DNA of 64,000 nucleotides from Helicostylum pulchrum (taxonomy: Eukaryota > Mucoromycota > Mucoromycetes > Mucorales > Mucoraceae), in assembly GCA_025677825.1 (NCBI GenBank), contig JAIXMO010000044.1, forward strand, positions 1-64,000. Direction: 5' to 3'. The notes under the pieces are model-generated. The model was not told where the DNA came from and searched no databases. It saw only the letters and a list, made by a program, of their open reading frames with translations. Below, piece after piece: positions 51,129-61,632 of the stretch (within the stretch, counting starts at the first letter, position 1; each line of letters begins with the position of its first letter). The position numbers and the translations under genes were made by a program.

Positions 51129-51617
51129 CTAGAAGGTCTCAGCATATCTGACCCAATCTTGGCAGTCTTGAACAGTAACAGATCCGCAAGCTCCAGGAAG
51201 ACGCGATGTCAAATTATCTGCTTTACCAAGTGGGCTTCTCTTGATATTGCTCTTTATTTTTGACCAGCATTCTTCGATCGGGTTTAAAAAAGGAGAGTAA
51301 GGAGGCATGAACAAAGGCTCATACCCTCTCTTATTAATAGCATCGATAACAAATGCAGAATGGCGAATTCTACAATTATCCAACACTATGAAAAAACCCT
51401 TTTTGTCGTGCTTATCAAGTGTGTCTATTGTTACTTCCAAAAACTTGACAATATGATATGCCGTGGTTCCCTTTTTCAAAGGATTTTTCTTCTCAGGGTC
51501 TTTTGCTTTTCTTTTTTTTTTTTGCTGGCAGGGTTCGCATACTCTTGTTCAAGCTTTTCTACAGCCGTCTTTGTTAAAGGCTCAACTTTTGAAAAATTGA
51601 CTGTTCCAAAATACGCA
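51129..51617 (-). pseudogene. Transposase 3' half, left copy
   Basis: The minus-strand reading matches the right copy residue for residue over the last 116 codons (from KKGTTAYHIVKFLEV to DWVRYAETF). It contains the second catalytic Asp (FFIVLDNCRIRH) and the Glu (FLNPIEECWSKIK). The copy begins at the palindrome centre, so the region with the first Asp is absent. A T12 tract (51511-51523) breaks the frame upstream of the long ORF, as in the right copy. Confidence 0.85.
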
Positions 51618-51618
51618 T

Positions 51619-52202
51619 ATGATAAGAGGGCGAGCTTGGTCCAAAGTAGGAGAGCCAGCGAATGTTACTGTTCACAAGCAAAGAGGTGCTAATATCAGTA
51701 CCGTTGGATGCATTGCGTATTTTGGAACAGTCAATTTTTCAAAAGTTGAGCCTTTAACAAAGACGGCTGTAGAAAAGCTTGAACAAGAGTATGCGAACCC
51801 TGCCAGCAAAAAAAAAAAAGAAAAGCAAAAGACCCTGAGAAGAAAAATCCTTTGAAAAAGGGAACCACGGCATATCATATTGTCAAGTTTTTGGAAGTAA
51901 CAATAGACACACTTGATAAGCACGACAAAAAGGGTTTTTTCATAGTGTTGGATAATTGTAGAATTCGCCATTCTGCATTTGTTATCGATGCTATTAATAA
52001 GAGAGGGTATGAGCCTTTGTTCATGCCTCCTTACTCTCCTTTTTTAAACCCGATCGAAGAATGCTGGTCAAAAATAAAGAGCAATATCAAGAGAAGCCCA
52101 CTTGGTAAAGCAGATAATTTGACATCGCGTCTTCCTGGAGCTTGCGGATCTGTTACTGTTCAAGACTGCCAAGATTGGGTCAGATATGCTGAGACCTTCT
52201 AG
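51619..52202 (+). pseudogene. Transposase 3' part, right copy (Tc1/IS630, DD34E)
   Basis: Starts GRAWSKVGEPANVTVHKQRG, the RxxxWSxxGxP block that follows the first catalytic Asp in IS630/Tc1 transposases, then CIAYFGTVNFSKVEPL. An A12 run at 51808-51819 shifts the frame; after it KKGTTAYHIVKFLEV leads to VLDNCRIRH (second Asp) and PPYSPFLNPIEECW (Glu), with 34 residues between them. The first Asp and the DNA-binding N-terminus are missing, so the copy is inactive. It is somewhat longer at its 5' end than the left copy. Confidence 0.85.
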
Positions 52203-60530: not shown

Positions 60531-60711
60531 GCTTTCACAATTACTTCTAGTTTGAAAACATTGTCACAATAATAGGAACTGCAATTACACTTTTAGATAT
60601 TTATGAATATAAGTAACCTTTGTATAAATCGAAATAGTTTACTCATGAAAATAAAAAATAAAAAATGCTGAACGTTTTTATTGATGTAAGAATAATCATG
60701 CACTCTTTTTA

Positions 60712-61627
60712 CAGGGTTTCCCACTATTTTTGGGAATAAATGTGGAAATTAATGGGATAAAAGTTGAACGAAGTTTAAACAAAATTTGAAAATTAATGGA
60801 AAGTTAATGGAGCAAAGTTTAAATATTAATAAAATGAAGTTAATTAATAATGCGACTTTTAAAGACATTTTAAGGTTTTACTTGTATCTTGATTATCCAA
60901 AGCGATAACTTTGGAGGAAAATTATTGAAGACGGGGTTTTTTCCAATCTTTAACCAGATTTGGCTTCTGGAAAAACTTGCTGGTTTTTGCGATGTGGCTC
61001 GTAAGCTAAAAACAATGTTTCTAAAATTAAGAACGGCAGCAAAGTCCCTGTTCCATAATCTATAGTTGTTAAATTCTTGAACATCTTCAGTAATTGTTTG
61101 TGGCTTTAAACATTTGAGATTTGTACATCCAAAAGTGATAAGAATACTTCTTTATAAAAACTTTGAACTGCATATTCTTCCAAATTAAGATTAGGCTCTT
61201 GAATAAATATATATCTTATAAATGAATATGTGTGAGTGACAATAACATGAACGTCATGAACGAGTTTCTTCAAATTTGAAAGGTATTGAGGTTTCCATTT
61301 TATTACAATAATTGAAGACTTTACGACCATAACTTTTTTATTGTCACTATTGCTAGTTGATAATGTATTCATCTGTGAAAATAAATGAGTGGAATATTAT
61401 ATTTAAACTTGTTAAAAACACTTACAGAGGTAGATTTTTCAATAGAATCCTGTAAAAAAGAAGGAAAAAGAGATTTTGGCAATATCAAAAAAAAATATTT
61501 TTTTGATATGTTTATAAGAGGTCAGATGGTTTATTATTAGATAGTCATAGCAGTTCCTTTTTTTATTATTATTGTAATTAAGTCCCAAAAAATTCAGAGT
61601 AAGTCCCAAAATTACTGGGAAATCCAG
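60712..61627. mobile_element. 916-bp inverted-repeat element carrying a deleted Fanzor gene
   Basis: The left end starts CAGGGTTTCCCACTATTTTT (then ggga). The right end, read inward, starts CTGGATTTCCCAGTAATTTT (then ggga), matching at about 22 of 28 positions. The CAGGG-type start is hAT-like. No target duplication is obvious. The interior encodes, on the minus strand, N- and C-terminal pieces of a Fanzor-like protein. Confidence 0.55.
60870..61372 (-). pseudogene. Third Fanzor relic, internally deleted
   Basis: An N-terminal frame (61106-61372) starts MNTLSTSNSDNKKVMVVKSS and has LKKLVHDVHVIVTHTYSFIR then YIFIQEPNLNLEEYAVQSFY, like helical N-termini I associate with mucoralean Fanzor proteins. 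Immediately downstream another frame reads EFNNYRLWNRDFAAVLNF (WNRD encoded at 61044-61055), then RNIVFSLRATSQKPASFSRS. WNRDxxAxLNFRxI is the final RuvC Asp block of that Fanzor type. The middle, including most of RuvC, is missing, so an internal deletion joins the ends near 61100. The acidic and Cys residues before NRD are also gone. Confidence 0.55.
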
Positions 61628-61632
61628 TATGT

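Follow-up and report, generated by a model that had tools for sequence, protein, structure and literature searches.

How an RNA-guided nuclease keeps a usable guide while it travels in transposons with ends dictated by a different enzyme is a question raised by a locus of the mucoralean fungus Helicostylum pulchrum in which the nuclease gene itself has largely disappeared. Within the 64,000-nucleotide stretch of contig JAIXMO010000044.1 that we analyzed (the window), a 916-bp element at positions 60712 to 61627 lies between 24-bp inverted ends and carries fragments of a Fanzor1 gene whose sense strand is the minus strand. What kind of transposon is this, and what has it kept of the guide (omegaRNA) system? 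It has exact ends, TA flanks, two deletions within its family, no nuclease core, a covarying hairpin downstream and an ATA upstream. Very probably it derives by internal deletion from a Fanzor1 transposon with Tc1/mariner-type ends, is non-autonomous and moved in trans, and has kept a candidate omegaRNA hairpin beside an upstream flank that would be an ATN-type motif.

Ends, copies and transposon class

The features that define the element are as follows.
60712 to 61627, minus strand: Fanzor1-derived non-autonomous element, 916 bp; both ends recur in five sister copies and one end in a sixth
61604 to 61627, minus strand: 5' terminal inverted repeat (Fanzor sense), from genome pattern searches
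60712 to 60735, minus strand: 3' terminal inverted repeat (Fanzor sense), with an acceptor-like AG at 60724-60725
60710 to 60711, no strand: TA flank at the Fanzor-downstream end
61123 to 61129, minus strand: internal-deletion junction of the short copies, with a putative ATG microhomology

Counted by eye, the ends CAGGGTTTCCCACTATTTTTGGGA (60712-60735, plus strand) and CTGGATTTCCCAGTAATTTTGGGA (61604-61627, minus strand) are identical at 20 of 24 positions, and the match extends to 22 of 28. A scan at a threshold of at least 17/22 returned one TA-flanked inverted-end pair around the coding remnant, and TA stands at both sides of the element. A DNA search of the 32-Mb H. pulchrum genome gave at least 19 matches to the element, and six sister copies were found in that genome, with 83 to 93% identity to the window copy in their main matches. 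The initial annotation had proposed a terminal-inverted-repeat element at exactly these positions, to be abandoned if no other copies shared its ends; its 22/28 count was reproduced, and five sisters (C139:112925, C93:360992, C113:175974, C88:348372-349826, and C129:104049) have both ends. The sixth, C139:1-793, is clipped by the start of its contig, and its single remaining end is the family end. Each of the 13 family ends that could be read is flanked by TA (six two-ended copies and one end of the seventh, L003). The window copy and five of the six sisters have a single internal deletion in common, with C129 shortened additionally; the C88 copy has 1443 bp between its ends, and its deletion differs from that of the short copies.

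With up to three mismatches allowed, the end pattern occurred at 10 places in the genome, namely, the seven copies of the Fanzor family plus sites on C89, C107, and C92. At C89:299476, a 26-bp end of the window family with two mismatches sits on a broken DDE_3 transposase locus. The minus-strand transposase remnant that adjoins this end matches DDE_3 above the cut-off (E 9.1e-15) and, in a separate frame, HTH_23 just under it (E 9e-5); its first catalytic segment reads FLVEAG, in which we would have expected an aspartate. The open frame at C107 resembles a transposase by eye only and is at most a remnant, so no intact transposase with the family ends was seen among the end-pattern matches at C89 and C107. 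Among the matches listed in a genome-wide DDE_3 search, none fell inside the window element. Since it contains no transposase and shares its terminus with C89, the window element is, by its ends, a non-autonomous relative of Tc1/mariner transposons; the TA flanks and the C89 locus both place it in this class on sequence grounds. A Tc1/mariner transposase that recognizes these ends would move the copies in trans. The hAT-like assignment proposed initially, which draws on a CAGGG found at one end only, is almost certainly wrong, because TA flanks all six two-ended copies (TA/TA, with an 8-bp target duplication in none of the six) and a near-identical terminus lies on the DDE_3 locus at C89.

Elsewhere in the window, two opposed DDE_3 fragments with identical scores (51210-51467, minus strand, and 51864-52121, plus strand; E 8.6e-15) probably represent a mariner element that was duplicated in inverted orientation, and the small contigs C15, C18, C19, C36, and C75 have several DDE_3 matches apiece.

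Fanzor-only mariner elements and Fanzor-less "ghost" elements are already on record. Bao and Jurka 2013 (PMC3627910) describe Fanzor1-only elements of the PUl-4 type that, like the window element, combine a Fanzor1 coding sequence without a transposase, mariner-type ends, and TA flanks. The mucoralean examples in the accessible passages of that paper either are MuDr-like and have 9-bp duplications or are left unclassified (MCi-2), whereas the window family has TA flanks, a common internal deletion, the hairpin, and the upstream ATA. The earlier suggestion that this arrangement may be a distinct family thus holds only weakly, given the mariner-end elements of 2013 and the ghost copies of 2023.

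Fanzor1 remnants inside the element

On the minus strand, the interior reads exon 1 without a start codon, intron 1, an N-terminal exon, and then a C-terminal exon.
61426 to 61450, minus strand: exon 1 remnant, with the start codon of the sister copies deleted (by-eye reading)
61373 to 61425, minus strand: intron 1 (GTAAGT...TTCACAG), read by eye and in agreement with the N terminus of Pilaira P0001
61126 to 61372, minus strand: Fanzor1 N-terminal piece; its C88 counterpart matches PDB 9cf0 with E 7.4e-42
60963 to 61125, minus strand: Fanzor1 C-terminal piece; matches PDB 9cf0 with E 6.5e-9
61020 to 61055, minus strand: WNRDFAAVLNFR, within the C-terminal piece

The N-terminal and C-terminal pieces are mutually out of frame. 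The latter matched one distinct PDB sequence, Fanzor 1 of Parasitella parasitica, to which the 206-residue N-terminal frame of the C88 copy also aligned, and L039, a relative within the H. pulchrum genome, matched both this protein (9cf0, E 1.1e-148) and SpuFz1 (8gkh, E 2.4e-44). Parasitella Fanzor1 (PpFz1; PDB 9cf0-9cf3) is accordingly the nearest solved protein to the window pieces; as described in the accessible text of PMC11423790 it is a full nuclease, whereas the window copy has its nuclease core deleted. A protein search in which 7993 candidates were scored yielded 59 relatives, headed by a 623-residue protein of Pilaira anomala (P0001) that is identical to the C88 piece at 150 of 205 aligned residues (73%). 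Since the annotated P0001 is missing its C-terminal WNRD exon, we do not call it intact. The C88 piece also had 67 matches in the H. pulchrum genome, the best-scoring one beyond its own family being 54% identical (at C84), so other Fanzor genes could act in trans.

The RuvC nuclease core is deleted in all seven aligned copies, and none of them can therefore make the nuclease. These findings bear out the proposal that the element contains an internally deleted Fanzor gene, and, given the absent transposase, that it is a non-autonomous deletion derivative in a mucoralean genome. A 70-codon stretch tested in the N-terminal frame was broken in three of the seven copies, for which reason we judged the truncated N-terminal peptide unlikely to be functional. 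Pfam gave no Fanzor family for the coding pieces and no match for three Fanzor relatives, a result at odds with the precomputed label PF26935.1 on most of the relatives; a sub-threshold MGMT_N match of the C88 piece (E 0.014) was taken as chance.

A hairpin kept after gene loss and a candidate flank motif

Three features next to the coding remnant may bear on the guide system.
60896 to 60915, minus strand: hairpin TCCAAAG-TTATCG-CTTTGGA, candidate omegaRNA stem-loop 1 (covariation 0.424 versus 0.171 shuffled)
61628 to 61631, minus strand: CATA on the Fanzor-upstream side, composed of CA and the flanking TA; a candidate for the target-adjacent motif (TAM)
60690 to 60709, minus strand: flanking DNA predicted to provide the guide, should the guide begin beyond the TA as it does in the Fanzor1 RNAs of PMC10711439

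A hairpin with the loop TTATCG, 3' of the C-terminal exon, is common to divergent Fanzor families of this genome. Its stem is CCAAAG/CTTTGG in family A (the window family), TGCAG/CTGTA in family B (the YNRDM family), CCAGAG/CTCTGG in family C, and CCTGAG/CTCAGG in family D, and is less regular in families E (L050) and F (L035 and L012). It is shortened in two of the seven family A copies (C93 and C129), with the loop also changed in C93. We gathered 23 rows, aligned 16, and computed the statistics on 12, leaving out L049, L050, and the shortened C93 and C129, whose inclusion would lower the pairing. In these 12 sequences, 82.1% of the hairpin cells were paired (66.0% when shuffled) and 14 were changed on both sides (5.4 when shuffled); neither value was reached in 500 shuffles, nor was the covariation score (mean over shuffles, 0.171), although these counts are not probabilities because the sequences are related. 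Versions of the hairpin slid along the alignment paired at 21 to 49%. The number of pairs with both-side change (4 of 7; 117/500 shuffles as high) and the number of further pair types (9; 115/500 as high) were not above the shuffles.

Genome-wide, the pattern AGTTATCGCT...AGGTA occurred at 26 places, compared with 3 for a reversed control. By-eye comparison of coordinates put 17 of the 26 within 1.8 kb 3' of Fanzor sequence (16 by protein match to the C88 piece, and C158 by DNA homology to L035). The window copy is missing from this list because AGG reads AAG there. The other nine are not adjacent to a protein match of the C88 piece (C81:840133, C84:331579, C85:70023, C86:254749, C89:163671, C94:353703, C103:514181, C147:630848, and C153:25459); some may be further ghost elements, with about three expected from the control. 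Rfam had no match for the candidate scaffold, and six hairpin-pattern stretches in viral contigs included no relative and came without the terminal pattern.

A guide RNA near the element end had been anticipated from the start, and the covarying hairpin, kept 3' of the lost gene and across Fanzor families, is a candidate for its scaffold that is new here. The hairpin would correspond to stem-loop 1 of the omegaRNA. The accessible text of PMC11423790 gives the PpFz1 RNA as 75 nt, with stem-loops of 7 bp (stem-loop 1) and 4 bp (stem-loop 2) and a guide segment from C50; the window hairpin, with at least seven possible pairs, is likened to the 7-bp stem-loop 1 by description and not by letters. 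The closest precedent for gene-less copies is the ghost element Spu-1 of Spizellomyces punctatus (Saito 2023, PMC10432273, as far as its accessible text goes), which has no Fanzor ORF and, like the window element, retains its ends and an omegaRNA-like 3' region. In Spu-1, however, the ORF is gone and a 75-nt scaffold spans the 3' repeat, whereas the window element still has gene pieces and ~185 bp between hairpin and end. The trans-use part of our proposal is less novel because Spu-1 has been published.

The second trace of the guide system may be the upstream flank. In families A, B, and C, every upstream flank that could be read (14 of 14) has an A at position -3 and ends in ATA, a count that leaves out L003, L046, L036, and L038 (no readable 5' end). 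Family A has CATA in five of six flanks and GATA in one, family B has TTTATA in six of seven and AATA in one, and the single readable family C copy, L040, has GTATA, its other end being TT rather than TA. The mirrored T at position +3 downstream occurred in only 4 of 17 flanks (7 from A, 8 from B, and 2 from C, with L040 left out; Fisher P = 1.2e-5 for upstream versus downstream). This upstream ATA fits the target motif ATN that PpFz1 needs (PMC11423790, accessible text), and the CATA of the window may be compared with the CA that Spu-1 elements conserve upstream of their 5' repeat (PMC10432273, accessible text). One-sided ATA could thus be the mark of a nuclease with ATN as its target-adjacent motif. 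In this scheme, the guide of the omegaRNA would be read from flanking DNA beyond the TA, the omegaRNA of the window element could serve in trans for Fanzor protein encoded at other loci, and Fanzor made elsewhere would cut the empty site next to the ATA and favor retention of the copy. A scaffold and a target motif are hereby predicted for mucoralean Fanzors, and with several Fanzor1 families and derivatives that keep hairpin and ATA at hand, trans action on gene-less copies becomes testable.

It is also possible, if on the doubtful side, that the element is a plain dead relic, a mariner-moved deletion derivative whose hairpin, left over with no Fanzor role, persists because the ends are needed. 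The 83 to 93% identity of the copies to the window copy, the broken N-terminal stretch, the shortened hairpins, and the lack of an intact transposase among the end-pattern matches would all be expected of a relic, but an ATA on one side only, seen in 6/6 family A copies whose 5' end could be read, would not be predicted for a symmetric transposase choice, and it extends to family B (7/7) and family C (1/1). Rather unlikely, in our estimate, is that the A at -3 reflects a transposase target preference or part of the element end instead of a Fanzor motif. In its favor, CATA likewise stands upstream of the transposase locus at C89, and the outer letters are family specific (CATA in A, TTTATA in B); on the other hand, the A is not mirrored at the other end, and C107 reads CGTA.

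When the flanks of 14 copies were joined and used to look for empty sites, the 40 candidates scored out of 85 gave no empty site for family A and no match across a family A or B junction; one match that crosses the junction by 24 nt, at C150:5206-5337, is a possible empty site of the family C copy L040. The upstream flank of L005 (C113) is repeated at C46:206573 and C145:38879 and that of L053 (C78) at C15:18182 and C141:7402; in both cases the similarity stops no more than 4 bases from the insertion point and is absent from the downstream flank. A second Fanzor1 family, of the [YD]NRDMAATLNFR type and 2.8 to 3.5 kb long (L039, L041, L042, L043, L045, L052, and L053), has TA-flanked ends with TTTATA upstream in 6/7 copies, and the number of AACCTAATTTTTTT repeats that precede the 3' end varies between its members.

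A donor-like site beyond the hairpin

Two further features lie between the hairpin and the 3' end (a slash marks the donor boundary).
60880 to 60881, minus strand: GT of a splice-donor-like site, ACAA/GTAAAA in the window and ACAG/GTAAAA in six sisters
60736 to 60879, minus strand: indel-rich, G-poor spacer from the donor-like site to the 3' end; intron candidate

Donor-like sites follow the hairpin in families A (AG/GTAAAA), B (A/GTAAGT), C (AG/GTAATG), D (AG/GTATGG), E (AG/GTATTT, past an extra hairpin), and F (AG/GTAAGA), 13 to 17 nt past stem-loop 1 in five of the six families and later in the sixth. The coding introns of the same Fanzor genes, read by eye from protein homology, begin with donors that include GTAAAA, GTAAGA, and GTAATA, and their last letters are TAG. 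With a scoring matrix built from just nine donors (seven from these coding introns and two from exon 1), the probability of an equally good donor per 12-nt stretch was 0.004 for A (0.021 for the window copy), 0.10 for B, 0.019 for C, 0.032 for D, 0.20 for E, and 0.003 for F; these values are not independent because the families are related. Families C and F have TACTAAC, which we take to be a branch-point-like word, near the element end; in L035 this word was not enriched over the whole locus (3 versus 1.65 expected), and we set enrichment aside. An AG lies 2 to 20 nt before the element end in the six families, which is unremarkable by itself, the ends of D, E, and F being placed where copies stop matching.

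The donor-like site past the hairpin suggests, from sequence, that splicing may remove the transposon end from the RNA. The intron would have its donor past stem-loop 1 and its acceptor in or beside the transposon end, and splicing would cut out the spacer together with most of the inverted repeat, joining a roughly 50-nt scaffold to a flank-derived guide; transposase ends and guide RNA would therefore be free of mutual constraint. By contrast with this scheme, the solution published for the conflict between guide and end is to build the transposon ends into the RNA (PMC10711439, accessible text). The modeled spliced RNAs of families A to F are 55, 46, 49, 63, 92, and 47 nt long. For A and C the predicted fold has two stem-loops, the second of them closed by the TA (z = -3.2 and -3.4); for B and D it is weaker (z = -1.75 and -1.78), and for F it fails against its shuffles (z = +1.2). 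Splicing is thus a live hypothesis and not a result, and we consider it unlikely at present that the mucoralean Fanzor1 guide RNA holds a spliceosomal intron and that ghost copies keep this cassette and donate guide RNA in trans. The same H. pulchrum Fanzor1 families make splicing testable as an answer to the end problem.

Several further lines were followed and dropped. The AG-free spacer is no proof of an intron, since the spacer has 2 to 3% G and 24 to 48% of shuffles are AG free; a second stem, formed by the UACAG on the donor side and the element end, was not significant against shuffles (P = 0.07 to 0.64 across the six families). Retroposed spliced copies of family A were not found, the pattern at two mismatches matching six genomic ends only, and no spliced Fanzor RNA appeared in the titles and abstracts of the literature surveyed, a coverage that mostly excludes subscription journals.

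The reading set against splicing is a long unspliced omegaRNA that runs through hairpin, spacer, inverted repeat, and TA into the guide, and it is a serious contender, if somewhat short of an even chance. The Fanzor1 RNA of SfAV includes the repeat and the target duplication (PMC10711439, accessible text), and, whether the RNA is spliced or not, the CUG-UA of the element end could base-pair with the UACAG that precedes the donor-like GT. Yet the PpFz1 scaffold is short, because its guide segment begins at nucleotide 50 (PMC11423790, accessible text), and the unspliced 246-nt window strand folds no better than shuffled sequence (z = -0.71; 38/200 shuffles as good). The spacer is also more variable than the hairpin plus linker among the six short copies (C88 left out), with 618 gap-mismatch cells across 145 window positions in the former and 88 across 42 in the latter, and substitutions at 0.046 and 0.019, respectively.
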